NCBI GenBank assembly: GCA_022508565.1
Contig: JAFLUY010000002.1
Location: 32,001 to 96,000 of the forward strand
From: Erysipelotrichales bacterium
Lineage (GTDB): Bacteria; Bacillota_I; Bacilli_A; RF39; UBA660
Direction of reading: 5' to 3'
Length of the DNA stretch: 64,000 bases
The first letter of the stretch is position 1. The number at the start of each line of letters is the position of its first letter. A program made the position numbers and the translations under genes. The notes beneath the pieces are model-generated. The model was not told where the DNA came from. It saw only the letters and a program-made list of their open reading frames with translations, and did not search any database. Positions 1-39,460 of this stretch are shown here, in pieces.

Positions 1-483
1 TTTAGCTATGAAACACTTATATCTCTTATTTTAATATCGGTAGTAATGATCACTATTATATCTGATTGTAAGTATATGGTAATACTAGATGAAGTACTAA
101 TTATGGGAATGGTTTTCTTATTTATTACTATATTTTTTGGTTTTGGAGCTACGTATACATTAAGACATATTTTATCAGGATCTATACTTTTCCTAGTTAT
201 GCTTTGTGTAAAACTTATAGGTGATAAATCATTTAAACAAGAGTCTCTTGGTTGGGGGGACGTCAAACTTTCATTTCTAGCGGGTTTTATATTAGGTTTT
301 AAAATAGGTTTAGTTTATGTTTTCTTAGGTGCTATACTTGCACTTCCGTATGCTTTATATACAACCATAAAAAAGAATAATGGAATGATTCCCTTTGGAC
401 CATTTTTAGCACTAAGTATGTTAATTATATTTTGGAATAGCAATTTAATAATAAACTATATAAACATTTTATTAGGAGTATAA
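1..483 (+). CDS. Prepilin leader peptidase (A24 family), 3' part only
   Basis: The reading frame is open from the first base, so the 5' end lies outside the window; 160 residues remain. Family knowledge: A24 enzymes are membrane aspartic proteases that cut the leader peptide of type IV prepilins and pseudopilins. The two catalytic aspartates can be placed: D22 of the visible part in SDCKYMVILDE, and the GWGDVK motif with Asp near residue 87. The C-terminal signature IPFGPFLA and several hydrophobic helices fit. The DUF2207 gene starts 3 bp downstream, so they are probably co-transcribed. No recognisable pilin is in the window. Confidence 0.85.
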   Translation, partial: FSYETLISLILISVVMITIISDCKYMVILDEVLIMGMVFLFITIFFGFGATYTLRHILSGSILFLVMLCVKLIGDKSFKQESLGWGDVKLSFLAGFILGFKIGLVYVFLGAILALPYALYTTIKKNNGMIPFGPFLALSMLIIFWNSNLIINYINILLGV

Positions 484-20405: not shown

Positions 20406-20434
20406 TTGCAATTTTTAAAAATTTATGCTATAAT
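20406..20434 (+). promoter_or_regulatory. Promoter of the long ncRNA
   Basis: -35 TTGCAA (20406-20411), 17-bp spacer, and -10 TATAAT (20429-20434) extended by TGC. The expected start is near 20441. Confidence 0.75.
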
Positions 20435-20440
20435 GACTTA

Positions 20441-20952
20441 TATGTGTGGTGCATTATGCTAGTCATTATACTATTTGAAGGTAGGGCTAAAAATCTACCA
20501 ATTGTACAACTGACACTTTGCATATCTGCTTCTTCGGCCCAAGTTGGGGTGGTTATGTAATTTAAAATTTAAGGATGAATTGTAATGGCATACAATTGAT
20601 TAACTCCTTTTATTGAGTCTATTATACAAGATAGTAATAACGTACATGATGTGAGTGGTTATCAGGGATTGAAAATGAAATGATAATTGCAAAAGCATAT
20701 AAGGATAGTCACTATTGTTAGGGAAAACCTCTAGCGTGTACATATTATAAGTATTGGAGTGCGGACTAAGTGGTAATCGAGTCGTTAGCTTGGTGACAAC
20801 TAACTGATCCATTTAAATCGAAAGAGCTCAAGGGTAACTGAGAGTATGAGATTAGAGAAATTCTACTCGACCAAAGCCGTAAAATTGATTTATAATATAC
20901 CATACAATGTTGACTTTAATTCGGGGAAAGAGCCGATTAAAGTTTTTTTTTG
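20441..20952 (+). ncRNA. Candidate long structured noncoding RNA, about 510 nt
   Basis: No credible ORF fills the 660-bp gap, yet a clean promoter and a strong terminator bound it. Several helices can be drawn: GGTAG/CTACC (20480-20499), AATTGTA/TACAATT (20578-20597), GGTTATCA/TGATAATT (20657-20688), a GTGA-tetraloop hairpin GTTAGC-TTG-GTGA-CAA-CTAAC (20784-20804), and a long-range TCGAGT (20777-20782) / ACTCGA (20865-20870). The local G content is higher than in flanking spacers. It lacks the GAGGAAAGTCC core of RNase P RNA and the tRNA-like 3' end of tmRNA. Size and layout recall large ornate RNAs such as OLE or ROOL, but I could not match either. Confidence 0.65.
20913..20952 (+). terminator. 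Terminator of the long ncRNA
   Basis: ACTTTAATTCGG (20913-20924) / CCGATTAAAGT (20933-20943) with one bulged T, then T9. Confidence 0.85.
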
Positions 20953-26933: not shown

Positions 26934-26962
26934 TTGACTTTTATAATTATTAGATATATACT
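26934..26962 (+). promoter_or_regulatory. Promoter of the second ncRNA
   Basis: -35 TTGACT (26934-26939), 17-bp spacer, -10 TATACT (26957-26962). Expected start near 26969. Confidence 0.7.
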
Positions 26963-26968
26963 TTAGGT

Positions 26969-27358
26969 ACTTAGTAAGGTGAACTGCTGGAAAACTGATA
27001 CTTTCAAATATATTTTAATCCAAACTAAAATATATTTTGTATCTTTTATGTATTTTTATTTTTGAAGTAGTATGTTGGCTATTGAATTAGTCAGCATACT
27101 ACTGATGATGAATAATTATACGACATTTCCAGACTATTGATTATATTTTTTCGCTTAACGGGATGTTCGGCACTAAATATAATTGCTACTATTCACCAGA
27201 TGCCATAATAGGTCTTGTCTTAGTACTAAGTATGTGATCACAGGGAGAAAGAAACTCCATATAATAAGATAAGCAGTAGTCATTGAGAACTGACATTTTC
27301 AATAACCACTGATCGTTTCAAACTAGGAAATACATAGTTGTCAGCTATGTATTTTTTT
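26969..27358 (+). ncRNA. Candidate structured noncoding RNA, about 390 nt
   Basis: An ORF-free 600-bp gap with its own promoter and terminator. The pairing is extensive and hierarchical. A closing helix TACTTAGTA (26968-26976) / TACTAAGTA (27224-27232) is perfect over 9 bp. Inside it CTGGAAA (26987-26993) pairs with TTTCCAG (27126-27132). That encloses hairpin 1 (GATAC + AAATATATTTTA at 26997-27017, with partners at 27026-27043) and hairpin 2 (AGTAGTATG-TTGGCT, 27066-27080 / AGTCAG-CATACTACT, 27089-27103). A 3' hairpin ATTGAGAA/TTTTCAAT (27282-27303) precedes the terminator. No RNase P, tmRNA, SRP or 6S signature was found. The family is unidentified. Confidence 0.7.
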
Positions 27359-27359
27359 T
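27328..27359 (+). terminator. Terminator of the second ncRNA
   Basis: AAATACATAG (27328-27337) / CTATGTATTT (27345-27354) and T8. Confidence 0.9.
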
Positions 27360-27382
27360 GTTTATTATTTAACCATAATTTA

Positions 27383-27411
27383 TTGTTATTACTTGCAATT
27401 TTTGTTATAAT
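27383..27411 (+). promoter_or_regulatory. Promoter of Cys-rich cluster A
   Basis: -35 TTGTTA (27383-27388), 17-bp spacer, -10 TATAAT (27406-27411), with TGT before it as an extended -10. Just upstream of the -10 is TTGCAATTTT, which also occurs at the same place before cluster B. Confidence 0.7.
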
Positions 27412-27441
27412 GATATAGAAGATATAAAAGGATAGATGATT

Positions 27442-28161
27442 ATGGCTAAAAAATTATTAATCATACTTTTTTTGTTATTTTCTTACTTTTGCATAACTTC
27501 AAATGTTTATGCAGAAGATAATTCTTGTACTTATAAAGAACAAGCTAATCTAAATAAGCTTGCAGGAAGTGTAGAAGTTTCTTATGATATTCAAAAGAAT
27601 ACTGATGGTACATACATATTTAAAATTTCAATTTATAATCTTACAAGTGACTTATCTGTAACTGTTACAAATGATTATGATGCAACTTTTTTTCTAACAA
27701 TCGTTAGTGAAATGACTAATAATGGTACATATACTTTTGAAGTGAATGATTATACTAACATCATTAAATATAGTTTTGTCGTGAGGGCAACAACATCTCC
27801 ATGTACAAGTGATTTAAAAAAGTTAACTTTAGTTAAACCAAAAAAGAATAAATATCATGATTACAACGAATGCAAACTTGCTGATACTGAAGGATACACT
27901 TACTGTACTGAGTGGATAACTAAAGATATAACATTATCAGAATCTGAAGTGTTAGAAAAAATTCAAGAGCAAAGATCATATGTTAAAAGAATTAAAACAA
28001 CTAAATGTGCAAATTGTTCAACAAATGTTAGAATGTCCGCACGTTTAGAAATGATTATGATGTATAAAAGATTTATCGTCATTGGTCTTTCTATTGGTAT
28101 TGCATTAGATATTATTTATATTTATTTAAAAGTTAGCAATATAAGGAGGTCAGCATTATGA
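27442..28161 (+). CDS. Cluster A small ectodomain protein (A1)
   Basis: 239 residues. The ATG at 27442 is used, not 27436, because AAAGGA lies 9 bp before it. A signal peptide ends at VYAED near 27. A beta-rich extracellular domain with paired Cys (CTYKEQANLNKL early; later SPCTSDLKKLTLVKP, YNECKL, YCTEW and CANCS) follows, and a C-terminal TM helix at about 210-232 ends in a short basic tail. It is a clear paralogue of B1 (32924). Function unknown. The ATGA overlap with A2 couples their translation. Confidence 0.8.
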   Translation: MAKKLLIILFLLFSYFCITSNVYAEDNSCTYKEQANLNKLAGSVEVSYDIQKNTDGTYIFKISIYNLTSDLSVTVTNDYDATFFLTIVSEMTNNGTYTFEVNDYTNIIKYSFVVRATTSPCTSDLKKLTLVKPKKNKYHDYNECKLADTEGYTYCTEWITKDITLSESEVLEKIQEQRSYVKRIKTTKCANCSTNVRMSARLEMIMMYKRFIVIGLSIGIALDIIYIYLKVSNIRRSAL

Positions 28162-29084
28162 TGAAAATCGAAAAAGAACAAAAAATCAAAAGAGAATACA
28201 TTCCTGTTGTTTTAGCTGGACTTATTCTTATTCTTTTTGCAACTTTATTAGTTCTTACAATTAATTATGAACCTGACCTTACTGATGAAATAAATGATAG
28301 CGAAATAGTAGAAAATGAAGATTTAGCTTTAGAAAAAACTGAATCTAAATGTAATACAAAAGAGTTACAAGAGATTGTTAATTCTGCGGCAAAGATAAGC
28401 GCAACTTATTCGGCACAAGAAAAGACAATCCCAGCTCCTGAAGAAATTGCAACAGATCCAAATATGGAACAAGATGAATTTATATATCGCTATTTAGAGT
28501 TGTTAATTAAAGGTATTACTGACGACATTTATATAGAAATAACAAATAATTACAATAACGATAAAAAAGTAATTAAGCCAGAAGAAGCTAATAAAAATGG
28601 AGAATATCGTTATGAAGCTCCAACTATGGACGTTTTAGTGACATATACAGTTTCGGTTTATGCAAACAAATATGATTGTGCTGGCGAAGTTGTAAGGAAG
28701 GTTGTTTTTGATACAAGAATCTATAATTCATTTAAGAATATGTTAGCTTGTGTTATGTATCCAAACTATGAAAAATGTACAACTTTTGTAACTGAACAAC
28801 TATCTTATGATGAATTTTTTAATGGACTTGATAATTATATAGACAAACATAAGGGAACAGAAGATGAAGCAACGGCTAATATTATGAATGCTTTTCTTGA
28901 AGGAAATATTGTTACAGCTGAAGATATTCGAGCTGATGCACTAGTTAGTAACAAAAAAGGTATAAAAAAGGCATTTGAAAAGATAAAGAATAATCTAGAA
29001 TTCATAATAATAGCTGGGGTTATTATTAGTATTGGGGGACTAGTTGTTGTACTACTAATATTCATAAGGAGAAATAAATTATGA
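28158..29084 (+). CDS. Cluster A bitopic protein with the A1-type domain (A2)
   Basis: 308 residues. A TM helix at about 14-35 follows a basic N-terminus, and a second TM helix lies at about 280-303. Between them is an ectodomain whose core (GITDDIYIEITNNYNNDKK, then VSVYANKYDCAGEVVRKVVF, then MYPNYEKCTTFV) matches the A1/B1 domain, so A1, A2 and B1 share one domain family. Strong AAGGAGG site. The stop overlaps the start of A3 by 4 bp. Function unknown; it probably anchors or guides the big secreted partner. Confidence 0.75.
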   Translation: MMKIEKEQKIKREYIPVVLAGLILILFATLLVLTINYEPDLTDEINDSEIVENEDLALEKTESKCNTKELQEIVNSAAKISATYSAQEKTIPAPEEIATDPNMEQDEFIYRYLELLIKGITDDIYIEITNNYNNDKKVIKPEEANKNGEYRYEAPTMDVLVTYTVSVYANKYDCAGEVVRKVVFDTRIYNSFKNMLACVMYPNYEKCTTFVTEQLSYDEFFNGLDNYIDKHKGTEDEATANIMNAFLEGNIVTAEDIRADALVSNKKGIKKAFEKIKNNLEFIIIAGVIISIGGLVVVLLIFIRRNKL

Positions 29085-32000
29085 AGAAGAAGTATATAGC
29101 ATGTTTATTATTATTTATTTTTTCAATGCTAATAGGAAATACAAATGTTTTTGCCGTTAGAGTAAAAACTAAAGTTGGATCATATTCATCTACTGGAATT
29201 CAATATGATCCTCATGGTAGCGGAGCAGAGGTTAACAATTATCGAGATGCAGAAAAATATGTTGTAGTTAATGGGCAAGAATTTATAGCATACTGTGTTG
29301 ACCCTGGTTTACATTTAAATTCAGGAAATGACTATGATTGTACACCTACAAGTGATGCAGGGCTTATATATATAGTTGAACAGGCAAGAAATCTCGATTA
29401 CGTTACAGCCCAATTAAGTGCAAGATTTTATGCTGTATATCGTGGGTTAGGTGGAATTGGCTCAAGTGAAAATACTAATCTAAAAGCATCAATTGCGAGA
29501 TATGCACAATTAAGACTTAAAGGTGGAAATACATTGCAAGCGGCTTGTGAGGCTATGGGAAAAACATGTTCATCCAGTTATAATGACTATTTATTTGGAA
29601 ATACTTCTGTAATTGAAAAAGCATTTGATATATCAGTAGAAGCAAGAAGCATCAGCAAAAGCGTCTCAAATGCAAGTGGAGGCTTAACTTTTACAAAAAG
29701 CGCTGCATCAACAAAGGATAGAATTATTTACACAGTAACTTCTTACCAAAAAGTTGAAAAAATGAAATTTGTTTGCGATGGATGTACAATTATTGGTTCT
29801 GATACAATTGAAGGCAGTTCTGGAACACTTGAAGTAGCACCAGCACCAGATTGTGAACCTTTTACTATCAAGGCTTATTACGTACCTAGTGGTGTTAGTA
29901 TTTGTAAATATTTTAACTCTTCGGTTTCAGAAAATTATCAGTATTTAGTTGCTGATTTTGAAGCGAGCGGATTTGTCGCTGCGGGAAGTGATTCTACTGG
30001 AGGATCTGGCGGAAGTTCGGATATCGATACCTCCGGAGAACCAATGGATGAATATCAAGATACAGGAATAGAATGTAAAGAAGAATGTTGTACTGAAAGA
30101 GATATTGAACCAGGTTATATTATTGGTGAAATAAATAACTGTTGTTACGATGGTACTCATTCATGGGCTAGAGAATATAACTTAAATGAAATGTTCTGTT
30201 ATTCAGATGAATTATTAGTTAATCATTACTGGGAAATGTGTAATACAGAAAGTTATATTGATACAAAGATGCAAGGATACTTAAATGAATATTGTAATAT
30301 TTATTGTACTGAAAGAGTTACAGTTGATATTCCTGGTGCTGTAACAGCAACTTCAGGAAGATACTTTGAACTTACAACAACGAGTTACGGAACTAAATCG
30401 CCTTATGTTCAAGGATTTAAACGTTGCAGAATGCAAATTCATTTCAAAAAATGGCAAGATGACTATCGTAAACAAGTTGAAGAACAAGTTAAACAGTACA
30501 ACTTGTATCAAGAGTATCGTCTAAAACAATATGTATATCAAGAAGCAGTCGATACTAAAAAACAATGCAATCTTCGTATAAAAGTTGTATGTACTGGTGA
30601 AGAAGATAGTGATAGTCGCACATGTAGCAATGGATATCAGTGCAATGTGAAAGCATCAACAAAAAACGTAGATGGTACTCATTTTAATCAATCAAAAGAT
30701 TACTTTCAATATAAATTTGATGGCTACCACAATGGAAAAAACTGGAATACAATTAAGCTTAAAGAACAAGGGTTTAAAGATGCAGCTGACGGGTATTACA
30801 ATTACTATGAAATGATTTATGATAAGAGTATTCCATATACTCATGAATTGTATTCATACTATACGGTTAAAGAAATGATAGAAGAGGCCGAGAGAGTTAA
30901 ATCAGAAAAAGAATCAATTACAGACGTTCAAAGTAATGGATGTTGTACTGCGCGTGCAGGTGTTAAATGTGACCTTGATTGGTATGATTCATGTGGAAAT
31001 CAGCTAGAAGATTTAAAGAATAAAGATGAAGATGTTGAATCAGAACTTGAAAGACTAACTGGCCTAGCAAATACGGCAAAAGCCGCATTTAATGCAGCAG
31101 CTAACAATGCTAAAGAGTTAGAAGAGAAAATTGATAAGTGTGATAAATTCTTTGAAGAATATGAAGGCACAAATGCACAAGATAATTACCCATTTAATGC
31201 TATGTTCTTTGGATTTGAATATACACAAATATATTTAGCAGATTATGGTGATTTAAGAAAAGATGTTATGTTGGTACCTTTCTCAGGATCTCCGGGATGC
31301 CAAATAAGTGGACCTATTTTAGGGCCGGATGCAGAAGATGGTTTGGTTGCACCTCAGTATTCAACTTTGTATCATTCAGATGGTATTACTGAAACAACGG
31401 ACTTTAAAGTTTCAGATCTTGAGTGGGGAGAAGACACTCAATGGTTTAAAAAATATCTAGATGAACTATATGAAGCAGATCAAAAATTTGTTCAAGATGC
31501 TAAATATCAAGCTAATTGTTCTTGGGATGAACCTGATAATACTAAATATACTTTAGTACCAAATGGTAATATTCAAGAAGAAGAATTTAATGTAACCAAA
31601 AATGATAGACAATATCAAATTTATCTTTCTACATTAGAAGGAACTTATGATACTCGTTGGTTATTAAGTGGTTTAGGTGTTACAGCCAATGGTGCCACAG
31701 GTAAATTTGATGCATTCTTTGCTGAAAATGGAGCAGTATGTTCTGGCAAACAAACAGCTGCATCAGACGGTTTATTCCACTGCGGTATAAAGGTTGAATG
31801 GGAAATAATCAATACTGGTAAATGTAATGGTTCAAAAACTACAGTTGATCCATCTGAATGCGAATTAATTACTGGAACAGAATTAGTATTAACATTTAAA
31901 GTTGTTGATCCATCTCAAGTATTTACTTGTTCAAGCTATTCTTCTTGTGGTTATGGATATAACTGGTTTGAAGGAAAGAATGGTTCTGAAACATTAGCTG

Positions 32001-32368
32001 CTATTAAGAGAAAAGGTGAAAATGGATCGACATATGCACCTAGCAGTGTTACATATCAAATTTCATTAAATTCAAGAGATATGCGACATATCAAGAATTA
32101 TAATGAAGAAAGAGAAAATAACAATTATGGTGGATATTCAGACTTCAGTTTATTATGTGATTGCCCAGAAGAATCTGAAAGTTGTAACGCAGTCTCTGAC
32201 CAAACATGTAAGCGTAGCCAAAGTTGTAATAAATGCCGAAGCGTTTTCTTAGAAGATTTATATAAAGGCTATGTTACATATAACGGAACTAAACACTCTG
32301 TTAGTGGAGCTAAAGGTTCAATTGGAACTATTAGAGATTCTGGTTTAGTTCACTGGGCGGAGAGATAA
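29081..32368 (+). CDS. Large secreted Cys-rich protein with possible thioester domain (A3)
   Basis: 1095 residues. A signal peptide ends near VFA (25). The N-terminal part resembles a thioester adhesin domain: FIAYCVDPG with C72, and TAQLSARFYAVY with Q111. From about 330 it is homologous to B3: CC pairs (C336-C337, then NNCC), FCYS, EYCNIYCTERV, then PGAVTATSGRYFEL, a helical coiled-coil region at about 640-700, and a C-terminal part with YQIYLSTLEGTYDTRW and a CNKCRSVF ending. There is no C-terminal TM or LPxTG, so anchoring must come from partners. Dozens of Cys suggest many disulfides. Function unknown. Confidence 0.75.
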   Translation: MKKKYIACLLLFIFSMLIGNTNVFAVRVKTKVGSYSSTGIQYDPHGSGAEVNNYRDAEKYVVVNGQEFIAYCVDPGLHLNSGNDYDCTPTSDAGLIYIVEQARNLDYVTAQLSARFYAVYRGLGGIGSSENTNLKASIARYAQLRLKGGNTLQAACEAMGKTCSSSYNDYLFGNTSVIEKAFDISVEARSISKSVSNASGGLTFTKSAASTKDRIIYTVTSYQKVEKMKFVCDGCTIIGSDTIEGSSGTLEVAPAPDCEPFTIKAYYVPSGVSICKYFNSSVSENYQYLVADFEASGFVAAGSDSTGGSGGSSDIDTSGEPMDEYQDTGIECKEECCTERDIEPGYIIGEINNCCYDGTHSWAREYNLNEMFCYSDELLVNHYWEMCNTESYIDTKMQGYLNEYCNIYCTERVTVDIPGAVTATSGRYFELTTTSYGTKSPYVQGFKRCRMQIHFKKWQDDYRKQVEEQVKQYNLYQEYRLKQYVYQEAVDTKKQCNLRIKVVCTGEEDSDSRTCSNGYQCNVKASTKNVDGTHFNQSKDYFQYKFDGYHNGKNWNTIKLKEQGFKDAADGYYNYYEMIYDKSIPYTHELYSYYTVKEMIEEAERVKSEKESITDVQSNGCCTARAGVKCDLDWYDSCGNQLEDLKNKDEDVESELERLTGLANTAKAAFNAAANNAKELEEKIDKCDKFFEEYEGTNAQDNYPFNAMFFGFEYTQIYLADYGDLRKDVMLVPFSGSPGCQISGPILGPDAEDGLVAPQYSTLYHSDGITETTDFKVSDLEWGEDTQWFKKYLDELYEADQKFVQDAKYQANCSWDEPDNTKYTLVPNGNIQEEEFNVTKNDRQYQIYLSTLEGTYDTRWLLSGLGVTANGATGKFDAFFAENGAVCSGKQTAASDGLFHCGIKVEWEIINTGKCNGSKTTVDPSECELITGTELVLTFKVVDPSQVFTCSSYSSCGYGYNWFEGKNGSETLAAIKRKGENGSTYAPSSVTYQISLNSRDMRHIKNYNEERENNNYGGYSDFSLLCDCPEESESCNAVSDQTCKRSQSCNKCRSVFLEDLYKGYVTYNGTKHSVSGAKGSIGTIRDSGLVHWAER

Positions 32369-32370
32369 TC

Positions 32371-32805
32371 ATGAAAGAGAGTTTATGGGGATATTGGATA
32401 GTAGTGTTAGGAGTATCAATCATGGGAGTGATGATACTACTACAAAACTATACAACAACAAATGAACAAGATTTTTACATGATACATGAAGTGTTAGAAG
32501 CAAGTATGTATGAAGCAGTAGATTATGGATACTATAGAGATACAGGAGAATTAAAGATGAATTCAGAAAAGTTTGTAGAGAACTTCATAAGAAGATTTTC
32601 AGAGACAGTAAATATCAATAAGAACTACACACTAACATTCTATGATATCTATGAAATGCCACCAGCAGCATCGGTATCGATAGCAACAAAGACAAACCAA
32701 AGTGCATTTGGAAAAAATCAAGGAGCAGCAGAAGATTCAGCAGCAGTGGTAAATAAACTAACAGGTATTTTATATACAAATAAAAAATACCAACCTAGAT
32801 TATAA
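32371..32805 (+). CDS. Cluster A single-pass 144-aa protein (A4)
   Basis: 144 residues: TM helix at about 7-26 (WIVVLGVSIMGVMILLQNY) and an ectodomain with no Cys. It recalls short pilin-like or TadE-like minor proteins, possibly DUF5411, but that name is from memory and weak. It begins 2 bp after A3 and ends before a terminator. The nucleotide sequence is identical to the gene at 38353, and its codon choice is unusual for the window: mostly A-ending codons (ACA, GCA, GTA, CTA) instead of the T-ending ones common in neighbours. Confidence 0.8.
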   Translation: MKESLWGYWIVVLGVSIMGVMILLQNYTTTNEQDFYMIHEVLEASMYEAVDYGYYRDTGELKMNSEKFVENFIRRFSETVNINKNYTLTFYDIYEMPPAASVSIATKTNQSAFGKNQGAAEDSAAVVNKLTGILYTNKKYQPRL

Positions 32806-32807
32806 AA
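32371..32807 (+). repeat. 437-bp exact direct repeat, copy 1
   Basis: From the ATG of A4 to two bases past its stop, this copy is identical base for base, by eye, to 38353-38789. Flanking bases differ at once on both sides. Confidence 0.93.
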
Positions 32808-32838
32808 GAAAGTTATAAAAAAACTTTCTTTTTTTTGA
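32806..32838 (+). terminator. Terminator of cluster A
   Basis: AAAAGAAAGT / ACTTTCTTTT stem and T8. Confidence 0.85.
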
Positions 32839-32869
32839 TTGAACTATACTATTTATTTACTTAATTATC

Positions 32870-32898
32870 TTGTATCTCTATTGCAAATTTGTTATAAT
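32870..32898 (+). promoter_or_regulatory. Promoter of Cys-rich cluster B
   Basis: -35 TTGTAT (32870-32875), 17-bp spacer, extended -10 TGTTATAAT (-10 at 32893-32898). Together with the TTGCAAATTT just before, it is nearly the same as the cluster A promoter. Confidence 0.7.
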
Positions 32899-32923
32899 TT
32901 TTATAAGGGTAAAGAGGATTGAT

Positions 32924-33640
32924 ATGAAAAAAATTTTTAGGTTTTTGGTAGTTATCACTTTTTTTACTTGTTTTAGTCTCAATGTTTATGCAGAAGAAGA
33001 CACAACTTGTAACTATTCATCGAAAGCAACCTTGCAAAAGTCAGCCTATAATGTTGATGCTAACTACACAATAAAGAAAGACGAAAACGGTAGTTTCTAT
33101 TTTGAAATATCAGTTTATAACATTACTGATGATATTTATGCAGTTGTAACAAATGATATAAATGGTGAAGAAGTTCAAATATACAATAATATTACTACTA
33201 ATAATAATTACTCATTTAATATCTACGATACAACTACCATAGTTAATTATGTAGTTCATGTAAGAGCAATTAAATATGGATGTAATGATGAACTTAGAAA
33301 AATTAGAATTACTAAACCACGTTATAACGATTTAAGTGAAATAGCGATATGTAAAAATGATATAATGTTAGACTATTCGTATTGTAAGACATGGGTTAAC
33401 AAATATTTCTCTGAAACAAGAGAAGAGGTTATTGAAAAAATCAACAATCAATATAATAAATTTGTAACCGAGCCCACTACAGAATGCATTTTATGTAAAG
33501 CGAGCGTTGAGAACTCTAAAAAAATAAGAAAACAGCTAGCTATGAAAATTGCTATAGTAATTGGTCTAATAGTTGCAATTATTTTAGATATTTTAATAAT
33601 TATATTACTTACTAATAGATTAAAGAGGTATGATATATGA
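32924..33640 (+). CDS. Cluster B small ectodomain protein (B1)
   Basis: 238 residues. ATG 32924 follows AAAGAGG; the longer upstream frame starts inside the promoter. Signal peptide to about VYAEE, a beta-rich domain with the same Cys pattern as A1 (TCNYSSKATLQKS; GCNDELRKIRITKP; ICKND; YCKTWV; CILCKAS), and a C-terminal TM helix at about 207-232. Paralogue of A1 with diverged sequence. It overlaps B2 by 4 bp. Function unknown. Confidence 0.8.
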   Translation: MKKIFRFLVVITFFTCFSLNVYAEEDTTCNYSSKATLQKSAYNVDANYTIKKDENGSFYFEISVYNITDDIYAVVTNDINGEEVQIYNNITTNNNYSFNIYDTTTIVNYVVHVRAIKYGCNDELRKIRITKPRYNDLSEIAICKNDIMLDYSYCKTWVNKYFSETREEVIEKINNQYNKFVTEPTTECILCKASVENSKKIRKQLAMKIAIVIGLIVAIILDILIIILLTNRLKRYDI

Positions 33641-35016
33641 AAAAGATTGAAAGAACAAGAGAAGAAAAGAGAGCAATAAAGAGATTTAAAGCTGAAGAAA
33701 GACAAAAAGTATTAAATAAAGAAAGAAAACCGATAAGAAAAGAACACTTCTATCTTATAGGAGCAATTTTTATTCTTATCTTACTTGTTAGTATTTTAAT
33801 ATATGTAGTATTCTTTGGCAAAAGAAAAGATCTAATTGTTCCAGATTTACCAACATATGAAACTGTTGATGTTGGACTTGTAGATTTTGCTGATAAGTCA
33901 GCAACCAGTGATGACTTAAATAGTAAAAAGACAAGTACATTAGATGTGGACTATAGTATAGTAAGTGACTTTTATAAGAAAGGAATATTACTATCAAATA
34001 CTCAATCAGATTACTTAAATGATGAATTCATTATTACATCTGGTCCTTTATCAGACACATCATTCATATCAAGTATATCTAAAGATGGAAAACTAAAATG
34101 GTTAACGAAACTAGATAATAAAGAATTTGGTAAATATCATATCTATAAAACAGTAACAATAAACAATAATTATTATGTTCTTTCATTAACAGAAAGAGAT
34201 AGTAAATCTTCATTAACAATTGTTAAAATATCTTCTGAAGGTGAGGTACTTTCAACAAGAGTTATTAAAGAAAATGTAACAGATAAAATAAAAGATGTAA
34301 TTACAATAAATGGTAGAATTGCAGTTGTTACATCAAATTCAAAAGATATTAATGTTTATTTTAGTGACTCAGATTTAAATGAAAATAAAACTTCTATATC
34401 ATTAAGTAAAAATATTGATAATACAAACTATCTAAATTATGAAAACGGAAGTGCTAATAATAACACATTATCATTAGTTGTTAGTAATGGGGAAGCCACA
34501 TTTAAAGTATCAATTGACATGAATAGTTATTCAGTAGATGCAGCCTCAATCGAAGAACTTGCAAATCTTAATACAACCGAAACATTAAGAGTAGGAAGTT
34601 ATCTAAATGGTTATACAGCGTATACTAATCAAGTTTTATATAAACTTGATACAGACTATAGATTAATTAATAAATTTGATTATAGTAGTATAAAGCTAGA
34701 AGATGATAAAGCTTTAAAAGAAAAATATAAAGATGAAGAGTTAATCGATGGTGCTGATATGGAAAATAGTATTTATATTGATACTATTAGTAACAATACA
34801 AATTCAATTATTGTTAATACTAAAACACTTTATTCATCAATTTATGATATATATGATGAAAACTTAATAATACAAAAAAGAATTATATTAGATACATTTA
34901 AATATTCTTACGAAGATGGAGTTATATTAAATAGTTTCTATATAGATGGGTCTATTTATGAAATCTATTCTTACGGAACAGAAACACCATCAATAATGAT
35001 AAGCAAGATAGGATAG
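33637..35016 (+). CDS. Cluster B membrane-anchored beta-rich protein (B2)
   Basis: 459 residues. A very basic cytosolic N-terminus (1-36), a TM helix at about 38-59, then a Cys-free extracellular region of about 400 residues made of repeated short strands (SKDGKLKWLTKLDN, SEGEVLSTRVI, then later blade-like repeats), which looks like a beta-propeller. It takes the place of A2 in cluster A but is not homologous to it. It lies between B1 (ATGA overlap) and B3 (10 bp gap). Function unknown. Confidence 0.75.
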   Translation: MKKIERTREEKRAIKRFKAEERQKVLNKERKPIRKEHFYLIGAIFILILLVSILIYVVFFGKRKDLIVPDLPTYETVDVGLVDFADKSATSDDLNSKKTSTLDVDYSIVSDFYKKGILLSNTQSDYLNDEFIITSGPLSDTSFISSISKDGKLKWLTKLDNKEFGKYHIYKTVTINNNYYVLSLTERDSKSSLTIVKISSEGEVLSTRVIKENVTDKIKDVITINGRIAVVTSNSKDINVYFSDSDLNENKTSISLSKNIDNTNYLNYENGSANNNTLSLVVSNGEATFKVSIDMNSYSVDAASIEELANLNTTETLRVGSYLNGYTAYTNQVLYKLDTDYRLINKFDYSSIKLEDDKALKEKYKDEELIDGADMENSIYIDTISNNTNSIIVNTKTLYSSIYDIYDENLIIQKRIILDTFKYSYEDGVILNSFYIDGSIYEIYSYGTETPSIMISKIG

Positions 35017-35026
35017 GAGGTATATC

Positions 35027-38000
35027 ATGAAGAATTTTTACAAATTATTAATTACATTAACATTATTTATGCTAGTACCTACTATTGTATTTGCTACAAG
35101 TGATTCTTCTGGAGAACAAGGCGGAGGGGCAGGAATTGTAAATTCTTGTAGTCCGAACTGTGTTGGTATTCAAAGATCATCATCACTTGCTGGTGTACGT
35201 ATAACGTTCGTTGATGCTAGTGGTAAAGCAGTATCAGCATCAAATGGTTTAAGTTTTGACTTTATGACATACATTAAACCAGGAAAAGAAAATGTTAATA
35301 CAACTTATAATGCATTTAGTGGAGATAGAAATAAGATAGCTCTTGCTGGCGGTGGAAATTATTCAGCAGGGTCAACTAATGCTAGTGCTGTTAAAAAGTT
35401 TAGTGCAGTAGCAGCTGCTTATAACAAATATGCACCACTTGAAGGATCTACTCATTTAACTTCATTAAGAACTAGTGGTAACACAGGTGGTAACTTAAAT
35501 GGAATGAGTAATGAACTTAATTTCTTCTTAGGTTTAACTAGAGCAGGAAATCCAACGTATGCAGCTGATGTTAATTCATTTATTAGAGCAATTGCTGAAG
35601 TAAGTGGTGGATTCAATGCTGATGATTTAATTTATAAAATAGCCGAAGGATGTAATACTGGTGAAGAAATATTCATCGTAATGGAACCAATCTTCTTCTG
35701 GTCAGGAAAAGTCGGTGGCTCTTACCAAAACTATTTTGGTACACTTGCTGATTCATATCATTTCTTTGGAGGAAAGATTATTGGAGCAGTAAGTAACACT
35801 AATAATATGGCTTACTTAATTTATTATGAAAGAGAAATAGCAGCATACCATGGAGCAACTGGTGTTTCAAGAAAAGGGTTCACAATTCAAAGTGGAGCAG
35901 ACCTTTTATCAACTGCTGGATTTGGTATAGCTGTTGACTGGGCAAATGACCCTGGTGAGTATTGTAACTCATGTTCTTATGTAAATGGCAAATTCTCATA
36001 TGATAATAAAATTTACCCAGGTGATTTAAAAATACCTAGTAATTTCAAGAGCATTCAAGAATATGCATTTACTGATAGAGGATCGGGTGGAGCTGGATGT
36101 TGTACTTTACTAGAACCACAAATTAGCTCAATGCCAAAAGAATGGCAAGATGCATATCGTGAGTTATGTAAAGAACCAGAACCTGAATGTTGTACACCAA
36201 GTGTACCAAGTGAACCTCCAGTAATCGATGTTCATAACTGTTGTGCAGATAATGCAGTATCTAAAGTTATAGATTCAGAATTAGATGATTTATTCTGTTA
36301 TGATAGTGAACTACAAGTAGATTTTTATAAAAATAGATGTGAAAACGATCGTTATAAAGAAGAATTAAATGAATATTGTGATATTTATTGTACAGAAAGA
36401 GTTGTAATGGAAGTGCCTGGTGCAATAACAGCAACATCCGGAAGATACTTTAAATTAACAGAAACATCAAAAGGAACAACTTCTCCATATATAGATGGAT
36501 ATAGACGTTGTAGAGTTAGAATTCGTTATAACGAATGGCGTGATGATTACGTTGAAAAAGTTAAAAATCAAGTAGAACAATATAATGAATTCCAAAGACT
36601 TGCTTCAATGGAGAAAAATTACGAAGAGGCAATTCCAACAGAAAATGAAATAAAACGCAGCGGAACAATTACAGCTACATGTTGGGAAAAAGATTCACAA
36701 ACAGGTCATACAAAATCTGATACAGCTACCGCAAATTTTGAATACTCATATCTTGAATATACATTTAGCAATAAATATTATTACTATACAGTAGATTTAA
36801 AAGATGATCATTACTCAAGAGTCGAAATAGTAAATGGTAGTCAAAAGAGAGAAGATCATACACCATTAAGTGTGTATAAATATGAAGAAGCAAAAGCGGC
36901 ATATGAGAAGGCTGTTCGTGAGGCAGAAAGTAAATGTAGATATGGAAATAAGTCATCTAGTGGTCCAGCATTTAGAGAACCTCCACAAGAATTTACAATT
37001 GAAAATCCAAAAGAAGTTGTAGAAACAATTCGTGCATCAAAAGAATCTGCTAAAAAAGCTTATAAGATTGCAACAGAAGAAGCTGCAACATTAGAAGAAA
37101 AAATTGATGAATGTGATTTCTACTTTGATGATTCAAAGAGTCGTCTAGAAGAAAAAGGTTCATATGACGGTAAAGATGCAGAAGCACATTATAGCTTCAC
37201 ACCAGATTTATTATTTAGATATTCTCAAGCATACTTAGGGGAAGATGCTAAAGTAGCAATAGATACTTTAAGTGTTGACTTTGATAGAACATGTAATTAT
37301 GAAATAATCTATGATAGTGAAGAATCTGATGTTGACGAAATCAAACCAGATCGTTATTCAGGAATATATGGTTCTGGTTCAGAAAGAATGCATGATTTTG
37401 ATAAAGATGTTGAACTTGAATATGAAACAGGTTTCAATTTAAATAAATATTACGACTATGAATATAAAGCTGAAAAGATTTATACTACAGATGCTAAATA
37501 CCATGCAGAATGTACATGGACAGAAAAAGATGATGAAACATTTACATTAGTTCCATCAGGATTAGCATCAAACTCAACCGAGTTGAACTATACATCTCAT
37601 AGTAGAGAATATAAAATTTACTTATCAACATTTGACGGAACATATGAAACTTATTGGGATATTAATAACATCGGCCACAAGGGAGGATTTACAGAATTCT
37701 TTAAACGAGGAAGCCAAACTTGTGCTGGTGAAGATCCAACTGAAATAGGAACAACTATTACTTGTAAAATACATGTTCAACATGAACTAGTATCAACAGG
37801 TAAATGTAATGGTTCAAATGGAACTGATACAACGATTTATGAAAAAGATTGTGAACCACAAAAAGAAGGATATGACCTATTTAAATTCAAGATCGTTGAT
37901 GAAGATGATTTCTTCCCAGCAGGAACAGAAGATGAGGGAGAAGGATTTGCATATAACTGGGTAGTTGACGAAAGAGGAAAAGCAGTTATGAAAGAAATCA

Positions 38001-38341
38001 ATGATCGAGCAGCAATAGGCGCAACATATGCTCCAGAAAATGCTACAATCATTATTAGTTTAAATAATAAAGACATGCGTACTATTAAAAATTATAATGC
38101 AAGTAGAGAAGATGAAAATGGTTACAGCGACTTCAATATGCATTGTGAATGTCCTACACAAACTCAAACTAATTCATTAGTTGAAGGAGTAGGATGTACA
38201 CAATGTAAGAGTTACTTTATTGAGAATCTTGAAAAAGGAATTGTTAGATATTCAGGAACAGATCATAAAGTAAACGTTTGGGCTTCGTCAAAGAGTCTTC
38301 AAGATATAAGAAATTCAAATGCAGCCAAGGGAAGATGGTAG
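35027..38341 (+). CDS. Large secreted Cys-rich protein (B3)
   Basis: 1104 residues. Signal peptide to about VFA (24). The N-terminal 350 residues differ from A3: a Gly/Asn/Ser-rich domain beginning GVRITFVDASGKAVS, with FIVMEPIFFWSGK, GFGIAVDWANDPGEYC. From about residue 370 it aligns with A3: ECC, HNCC, FCYD, EYCDIYCTERV, PGAITATSGRYFKL, coiled coil, YKIYLSTFDGTYET, and the C-terminal CTQCKSYF. No C-terminal anchor. AGGAGG start. It is probably the main structural or binding subunit of cluster B; function unknown. Confidence 0.75.
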   Translation: MKNFYKLLITLTLFMLVPTIVFATSDSSGEQGGGAGIVNSCSPNCVGIQRSSSLAGVRITFVDASGKAVSASNGLSFDFMTYIKPGKENVNTTYNAFSGDRNKIALAGGGNYSAGSTNASAVKKFSAVAAAYNKYAPLEGSTHLTSLRTSGNTGGNLNGMSNELNFFLGLTRAGNPTYAADVNSFIRAIAEVSGGFNADDLIYKIAEGCNTGEEIFIVMEPIFFWSGKVGGSYQNYFGTLADSYHFFGGKIIGAVSNTNNMAYLIYYEREIAAYHGATGVSRKGFTIQSGADLLSTAGFGIAVDWANDPGEYCNSCSYVNGKFSYDNKIYPGDLKIPSNFKSIQEYAFTDRGSGGAGCCTLLEPQISSMPKEWQDAYRELCKEPEPECCTPSVPSEPPVIDVHNCCADNAVSKVIDSELDDLFCYDSELQVDFYKNRCENDRYKEELNEYCDIYCTERVVMEVPGAITATSGRYFKLTETSKGTTSPYIDGYRRCRVRIRYNEWRDDYVEKVKNQVEQYNEFQRLASMEKNYEEAIPTENEIKRSGTITATCWEKDSQTGHTKSDTATANFEYSYLEYTFSNKYYYYTVDLKDDHYSRVEIVNGSQKREDHTPLSVYKYEEAKAAYEKAVREAESKCRYGNKSSSGPAFREPPQEFTIENPKEVVETIRASKESAKKAYKIATEEAATLEEKIDECDFYFDDSKSRLEEKGSYDGKDAEAHYSFTPDLLFRYSQAYLGEDAKVAIDTLSVDFDRTCNYEIIYDSEESDVDEIKPDRYSGIYGSGSERMHDFDKDVELEYETGFNLNKYYDYEYKAEKIYTTDAKYHAECTWTEKDDETFTLVPSGLASNSTELNYTSHSREYKIYLSTFDGTYETYWDINNIGHKGGFTEFFKRGSQTCAGEDPTEIGTTITCKIHVQHELVSTGKCNGSNGTDTTIYEKDCEPQKEGYDLFKFKIVDEDDFFPAGTEDEGEGFAYNWVVDERGKAVMKEINDRAAIGATYAPENATIIISLNNKDMRTIKNYNASREDENGYSDFNMHCECPTQTQTNSLVEGVGCTQCKSYFIENLEKGIVRYSGTDHKVNVWASSKSLQDIRNSNAAKGRW

Positions 38342-38352
38342 GTGAGTAGAAT

Positions 38353-38787
38353 ATGAAAGAGAGTTTATGGGGATATTGGATAGTAGTGTTAGGAGTATCA
38401 ATCATGGGAGTGATGATACTACTACAAAACTATACAACAACAAATGAACAAGATTTTTACATGATACATGAAGTGTTAGAAGCAAGTATGTATGAAGCAG
38501 TAGATTATGGATACTATAGAGATACAGGAGAATTAAAGATGAATTCAGAAAAGTTTGTAGAGAACTTCATAAGAAGATTTTCAGAGACAGTAAATATCAA
38601 TAAGAACTACACACTAACATTCTATGATATCTATGAAATGCCACCAGCAGCATCGGTATCGATAGCAACAAAGACAAACCAAAGTGCATTTGGAAAAAAT
38701 CAAGGAGCAGCAGAAGATTCAGCAGCAGTGGTAAATAAACTAACAGGTATTTTATATACAAATAAAAAATACCAACCTAGATTATAA
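38353..38787 (+). CDS. Cluster B single-pass 144-aa protein (B4), identical to A4
   Basis: The protein and DNA are identical to A4 (32371-32805). It is the last gene of cluster B, 11 bp after B3, with its own ribosome-binding site TAGGTGAG. Because A3 and B3 have diverged strongly, the identity means recent gene conversion or replacement, or extreme selection. N-terminal TM helix, Cys-free ectodomain. Confidence 0.85.
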   Translation: MKESLWGYWIVVLGVSIMGVMILLQNYTTTNEQDFYMIHEVLEASMYEAVDYGYYRDTGELKMNSEKFVENFIRRFSETVNINKNYTLTFYDIYEMPPAASVSIATKTNQSAFGKNQGAAEDSAAVVNKLTGILYTNKKYQPRL

Positions 38788-39199: not shown

Positions 39200-39460
39200 A
39201 TGGAAATATTAAAAGTATCAAGTAAATCAAACCCTAGTAAAGTTGCAGGGGCAATTGCAAACGTTTTTAGAAGTTTGGGAAGTGTTGAAATCCAAACAAT
39301 TGGAGCCGGAAGTTTAAACCAAGCAATTAAAGCAATTTGTATTGCACGAGGATTTGTAGCTCCTAGTGGAAAGAATTTAATCGTAATACCAGCTTTTTCA
39401 GATATTACAATTGAAGGTGAAGAAAAAACTGCAATTAAACTAATTGTTGAGGCAAGATAA
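39200..39460 (+). CDS. spoVS: Stage V sporulation protein S
   Basis: 86 residues, exactly the family length, with the hallmarks MEILKVSSKSNPSKVAGAIA and the GAGSLNQAIKAICIARGFVA region (an ALBA-like fold). In Bacillus it affects septation and late sporulation; homologues also exist in non-sporulating Firmicutes, so it alone does not show sporulation. GAAAGG ribosome-binding site. The stop codon lies within the terminator loop. Confidence 0.95.
   Translation: MEILKVSSKSNPSKVAGAIANVFRSLGSVEIQTIGAGSLNQAIKAICIARGFVAPSGKNLIVIPAFSDITIEGEEKTAIKLIVEAR

Follow-up and report, generated by a model that had tools for sequence, protein, structure and literature searches.

Tandem paralogous gene clusters in a gut bacterium as probable alternative adhesin modules of a dispersed Tad-like filament system

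In 2022, an operon encoding CpaF, PilC/GspF, DUF5411 and an internalin-B-like protein, present in Roseburia, Ruminococcus and Eubacterium, was predicted from gene context to be a "secretion" operon (PMC9523054). Two other groups of described systems are pertinent here: the Gram-positive Tad loci, especially their distant group that lacks canonical Flp pilins (PMC3244431), and adhesins with class II thioester domains. In these domains, the cysteine that forms the bond is recognized by a [YFL]C motif, and the glutamine by a weak motif that follows an inserted beta-sandwich, close to where the domain ends (PMC6194298). In the literature, this glutamine is found about 170-205 residues past the cysteine. 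We analyzed two adjacent gene clusters, A and B, in a 64,000-nucleotide stretch (hereafter, the window) of the genome of an Erysipelotrichales bacterium (assembly GCA_022508565.1, contig JAFLUY010000002.1, positions 32,001 to 96,000). The host is a gut bacterium with a small genome; its relatives, represented by metagenome assemblies, are Bacilli that have not been cultured and come mostly from the guts of animals. We conclude that the two clusters are probably tandem paralogous alternative adhesin modules of a single, dispersed Gram-positive Tad-like type IV filament system.

A preliminary description, made from the sequence alone, considered this combination of genes undescribed. The system is not wholly so, because an operon of this kind had been predicted under the name of secretion (PMC9523054), and the clusters appear to represent the adhesin/DUF5411 part of a Tad-like system. 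A match to described adhesin and pilus systems was thus found in part.

Clusters A and B and the machinery encoded elsewhere

The clusters occupy positions 27436-32805 (A) and 32924-38787 (B) of the window, both on the + strand, and consist of the following genes:

A1, 27436..28161, + strand: S family; small secreted domain protein with a signal peptide and a C-terminal transmembrane helix
A2, 28158..29084, + strand: A1-type domain flanked by N- and C-terminal transmembrane helices
A3, 29081..32368, + strand: secreted Cys-rich protein of 1095 amino acids (aa); residues ~26-293 form a predicted class II thioester domain (Cys72, Gln287)
A4, 32371..32805, + strand: DUF5411 (PF17424); single-pass protein, pilin-like outline in the model
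B1, 32924..33640, + strand: S-family protein, homolog of A1
B2, 33637..35016, + strand: N-terminally anchored protein of 459 aa, in the place of A2
B3, 35027..38341, + strand: secreted Cys-rich protein of 1104 aa; its own N-terminal 350 aa are kept in B-type relatives
B4, 38353..38787, + strand: DUF5411; 435/435 bp the same as A4

All eight open reading frames are present in the order previously given, as two tandem, diverged clusters. The tight coupling through ATGA overlaps that had been reported holds for A1/A2, A2/A3 and B1/B2; at B2/B3 and at both gene-3/gene-4 junctions, there are short gaps instead. Our comparisons also agree with the preliminary description on the domain common to A1, A2 and B1 (E 1e-33 for A1/B1, 1e-6 for A2/B1 and 4e-4 for A1/A2), on the C-terminal ~750 residues common to the large proteins (A3 306-1087 aligns with B3 353-1097 at 34% identity, E 9e-116), which are joined to unrelated N-termini, and on the dicysteine pairs, with three CC pairs each in A3 (42 cysteines) and B3 (30 cysteines). 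Disulfide stabilization of a surface assembly is plausible. Scans of whole A1, A2, A3, B1, B2 and B3 against Pfam and NCBIfam returned nothing convincing. Sequence searches detected no homology between B2 and A2, and a resemblance of B2 to beta-propellers was weak and below the cut-off. Downstream, cluster B is adjoined by SpoVS (window 39200-39460), to which an 86-aa gene at the same place in several relatives may correspond.

The gene context was analyzed in 77 loci from other genomes, with genes labeled by profiles. In relatives, the order of an S-family small protein, a large Cys-rich protein and DUF5411 is fixed; after these come, as a rule, an RcpC/CpaB-like protein, CpaF, TadB-like and TadC-like proteins, at least one Flp-like small protein, two pilin-like proteins and a TadZ-like protein. 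The large Cys-rich gene lies immediately 5' of DUF5411 in 73 of the 77 cases in which an upstream neighbor is present, and CpaF is located no more than three genes downstream of DUF5411 in 56/72. DUF5411 and CpaF occur in one operon in other genera of the family, where only position and topology identify the PilC/GspF-type platform. In the window's genus, the system is spread over three loci on separate contigs, namely, the adhesin modules, a motor locus with two RcpC genes, CpaF, TadB and TadC (G000:C34, L075), and a pilin locus that encodes a 402-aa Cys-rich protein followed by pilin-like, Flp-like, pilin-like and TadZ-like proteins (G000:C35, L205). One motor locus and one pilin locus were found for two adhesin modules, and Flp-like and TadZ-like genes are present in 9/9 genomes of the genus.

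The CpaF of the host genome matches T2SSE (E 4e-26, 91.9 bits versus a cut-off of 24.9), its matches to the NCBIfam TadA and VirB11 models being below their cut-offs, and one of the two RcpC/CpaB copies scores 37.7 bits versus a cut-off of 28.8. The TadB/TadC-like proteins agree in position, and their membrane layout is similar to that of a Tad platform pair from a relative. The Flp-like proteins are small single-pass MK[ED]ATGEL proteins, in which Glu immediately follows Gly, and the TadZ-like protein is conserved, with a weak match to AAA_31 (E 0.017). The 402-aa protein of the pilin locus (L205 6244-7452), encoded ahead of the pilin genes, is secreted, carries a C-terminal membrane helix and has a cadherin-like match of borderline strength. 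Downstream of the pilin locus, two relatives have several membrane and ATPase-sized genes with a resemblance to a conjugation or type IV secretion set (L210 2758-12000; L211 10138-15023).

The dispersal of these loci bears on one alternative. The motor and pilin genes are not on the contig of clusters A and B, which constitute complete units with tight coupling, as might be the case for stand-alone adhesins if they were held by A1, A2, B1, B2 and A4, acted independently of the Tad-like machine and had moved out of its operon. We find this quite unlikely, given that the same genes and the machine share one operon in other genera, and that the genus has retained the motor, Flp-like and TadZ-like genes.

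Heads of the two large proteins

When the full-length model of A3 (mean pLDDT 78.5) was compared with the Protein Data Bank (PDB), thioester-domain structures took all four top places in VIA-align: BaTIE (6fwv, Z 11.6, 138 residues, 3.3 A), EfmTIE86 (6fwy, Z 10.5), Cpa (2xid, Z 9.1) and SaTIE (6fx6, Z 8.7), with unrelated structures beginning at Z 7.5. The predicted bond-forming cysteine is part of the motif Y71-C72-V73-D74 and is present in 8/8 A-type proteins compared; the motif YC.DP was also found in large proteins of other genera. Because the class II glutamine sits about 170-205 residues after the cysteine, Gln287, in the motif Y286-Q287-Y288-L289-V290, is the candidate partner. The Cys72-Gln287 spacing is 215 residues, compared to 204 in EfmTIE86, and by inspection, allowing for small alignment shifts, a glutamine in a similar context is present in all eight A-type proteins. 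Gln111 was also considered as the thioester residue and dropped, the spacing in the literature pointing to Gln287.

The TQXX-hydrophobic-W motif is not matched in A3, which has TAQLSARF, without the Trp; the Gln and Trp of this motif are not essential for the bond (PMC6194298). None of the Pfam thioester models matched A3, and TED_2 was detected in 2/16 relatives (best E 0.0021). Sequence profiles of the A3 head and of the whole A3 family found no PDB relative. The predicted fold, together with Cys72 and Gln287, supports the assignment of the A3 N-terminus to the class II thioester domains, and the head may bind a target amine covalently.

The head of B3 is conserved among B-type relatives and lacks the YC.DP motif, and a profile of B2 found no PDB relative. 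The tips of A3 and B3 are thus different: A3 has the motif and a predicted thioester fold, and the B3 head lacks the motif. Related species hold A-type modules, B-type modules or both. The surface assembly with exchangeable N-terminal tips that was originally envisaged is therefore partly supported, by the predicted thioester head of A3, the different head of B3 and the mixing of types among relatives.

The nature of the heads is relevant to the principal alternative, under which CpaF and DUF5411 belong to a type II-like secretion machine, and A3 and B3 are its exported substrates, not parts of a filament. Such a machine would fit the secretion-related prediction of PMC9523054 and the protein secretion that is also known for type IV filament machines, as well as the absence from A3 and B3 of a wall anchor, in the form of LPXTG plus a C-terminal membrane helix, or of any such helix (the C-termini are HWAER and AAKGRW). 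We nevertheless regard it as unlikely: the system includes genes for Flp-like proteins and for two pilin-like ones, the A3 head is a predicted adhesin domain, and A3 and B3 need no such machine to cross one membrane because both carry their own N-terminal signal peptides.

DUF5411 and its homogenized copies

A4 and B4 are members of the Pfam family DUF5411 (E 2.4e-53, 180.1 bits versus a curated cut-off of 30), which is matched over the cut-off in 33/37 genomes of the window's family and, in a sample of the phylum, is rare outside it. The model has an N-terminal helix of 46 residues, three strands and two further, short helices, a predicted outline that is pilin-like. A pilin and a pseudopilin (6xxd Z 5.0, 9a1f Z 4.8) are among the listed matches whose alignments extend from residue 1 through the last strand, and they are suggestive only as a clue to the fold; profile comparison of DUF5411 with the other pilin-like proteins found only the 13-residue N-terminus in common. 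Several relatives have DUF5411 in fusion with a D-Ala-D-Ala peptidase, in some cases with an additional SH3 domain, and these fusions would place the C-terminal side of DUF5411 at the cell wall. In one relative, the fusion partner is a Cys-rich stretch of ~1,040 residues that has no detectable homology to the large protein.

The DNA of A4 and B4 is identical at 435/435 bp, from the ATG to 2 bp past the stop codon, an observation absent from the preliminary description. Within genomes, the two DUF5411 copies are identical at 435/435, 429/432 and 441/441 bp in three genomes; in the fourth genome with two modules, they agree throughout their first 420 bp (420/420). Between the first three species, the DUF5411 proteins are just 73-80% identical (compared with each other's reference A4), and in two tandem-module loci of other genera, the copies are 80% and 90% identical. 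In the DUF5411 tree, the copies pair by species, whereas the large proteins pair by type, B3 of two species with support 100/100 and A3 of the same two with 87/77. The pairing of the large proteins by type implies that the module duplication predates the split of those two species, so that the DUF5411 copies have been homogenized since the split. Gene conversion is presumably the cause; being limited by the ends of homology, it would account for identity that breaks off close to the gene borders or right at them. This homogenization may be favored by selection for a common connector.

The identity of A4 and B4 would need no repeated conversion if it were an assembly artifact or the outcome of a very recent duplication, and the relatives are indeed metagenome assemblies, in which identical repeats are hard to assemble. 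This is highly unlikely considering that the same pattern is seen in four species whose genomes were assembled separately, in one of them with three differences (429/432), and that the large-protein tree puts the module duplication before the split of two of these species.

In the proposed system, A3 and B3 would be Cys-rich adhesins exported by Sec, alike in their C-terminal body and unlike in their heads: the thioester head of A3 could bind a target amine covalently, and B3 would bear another head. The membrane proteins A1, A2, B1 and B2 would hold or chaperone the large proteins, and the pilin-like, single-pass DUF5411 protein (A4 or B4) would connect either adhesin to the common machine (G000:C34 + G000:C35). 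Since a single machine would serve both modules, gene conversion would keep DUF5411 identical even as the heads diverge. The display on a pilus, the covalent binding, the alternative use of the two modules and the reason for the homogenization are inferences.

Several results weigh against this interpretation. The machinery is not adjacent to clusters A and B in the window's genus, so the use of a common machine rests on the relatives. The TadB/TadC-like proteins have no significant match to T2SSF by sequence or profile comparison, and neither the Flp-like nor the pilin-like proteins reach the cut-off of any pilin family, and both are without the usual Glu +5; because the platform and Flp-like proteins miss these family matches, we name the system Tad-like and do not class it as a Tad pilus. 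A dedicated TadV was not found in the genome, which is 95% complete, and the one A24 prepilin peptidase found is encoded beside a separate type IV pilus cluster. Furthermore, Foldseek alone yielded no significant match for A3, the B3 head has no detectable family and its profile found no PDB relative, and all fold matches of DUF5411 are at Z <8. The prepilin peptidase of the type IV pilus cluster might serve the Tad-like pilins too. The end of that cluster, with PilC and this peptidase, is at the left edge of the window (window 1-483; L084).

A more specific version of the proposal, namely, a Tad-like pilus with interchangeable heads, one of them covalent, and with DUF5411 under ongoing conversion and possibly acting as a recombination point for the gain and loss of heads, is put forward tentatively, as a possibility that we judge to be on the doubtful side.

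Upstream elements and comparison with known systems

Three features lie upstream of the clusters:

27383..27411, + strand: promoter-like site of cluster A, TTGTTA-17-TATAAT
32888..32898, + strand: promoter-like core of cluster B, TTTGTTATAAT
26934..27360, + strand: structured RNA of ~390 nt that lies between A1 and a divergent gene and has a promoter-like site (TTGACT-17-TATACT) of its own and a terminator-like stem

The core TTTGTTATAAT is common to both clusters and also occurs upstream of two other genes in the window. The claim of nearly the same promoter is weakened by these additional occurrences, and an operon-specific promoter common to A and B is unsupported.

In an alignment of seven species, 39 of the 76 predicted pairs of the upstream RNA show two-sided changes, and no Rfam family matched it at the gathering score. 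It was detected in eight genomes of the genus and precedes the adhesin locus wherever the neighborhood was read. We consider it a candidate element with a putative link to the operon. Weaker second copies of the RNA are present in three genomes, near genes that by eye resemble arylsulfate sulfotransferases (L226-L228). Elsewhere in the window, at 20430-20919, this low-GC gut Bacilli genome contains an OLE RNA (RF01071, 218.7 bits, E 3.1e-60); next to it come a 173-aa gene that matches no Pfam family and then a PAP2-family gene.

If the proposed interpretation holds, DUF5411, a domain of unknown function, acquires a likely role as a pilin-like connector, and thioester adhesins, known from sortase-anchored proteins, become linked to a Tad-like filament. 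The locus would then be a natural case of a common connector that is homogenized while target-binding heads diversify, and uncultured small-genome gut Bacilli would gain a concrete, testable attachment system.

Among the described systems, the operon of PMC9523054 is similar in combining DUF5411 and CpaF, there together with PilC/GspF and a large surface-type protein with remote similarity to internalin B. Here, by contrast, the large protein is rich in cysteine and bears a predicted thioester head, the tandem modules lie apart from the machine, and DUF5411 is homogenized. With the Gram-positive Tad loci (PMC3244431), the system shares TadA/CpaF, RcpC, TadZ-like and TadC-like proteins along with genes of unknown function, but no dedicated TadV or recognizable Flp motif was found here, and genes for DUF5411 and Cys-rich adhesins are added. 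The class II adhesins BaTIE, SaTIE, EfmTIE86 and TIEpLS20 (PMC6194298, PMC8092201) resemble A3 in the predicted beta-sandwich head, the YCVD motif and the position of the Gln at the domain's far end; A3 differs in the absence of a C-terminal anchor, in the long Cys-rich body that replaces isopeptide repeats and in the DUF5411/Tad-like context. Cpa (Spy0125) of Streptococcus pyogenes likewise has a thioester domain as a pilus-linked head, but this domain is of class I and is carried by a sortase pilus, an unrelated machinery. Compared to all these systems, the thioester head, the split of the locus and the homogenization of DUF5411 look new.

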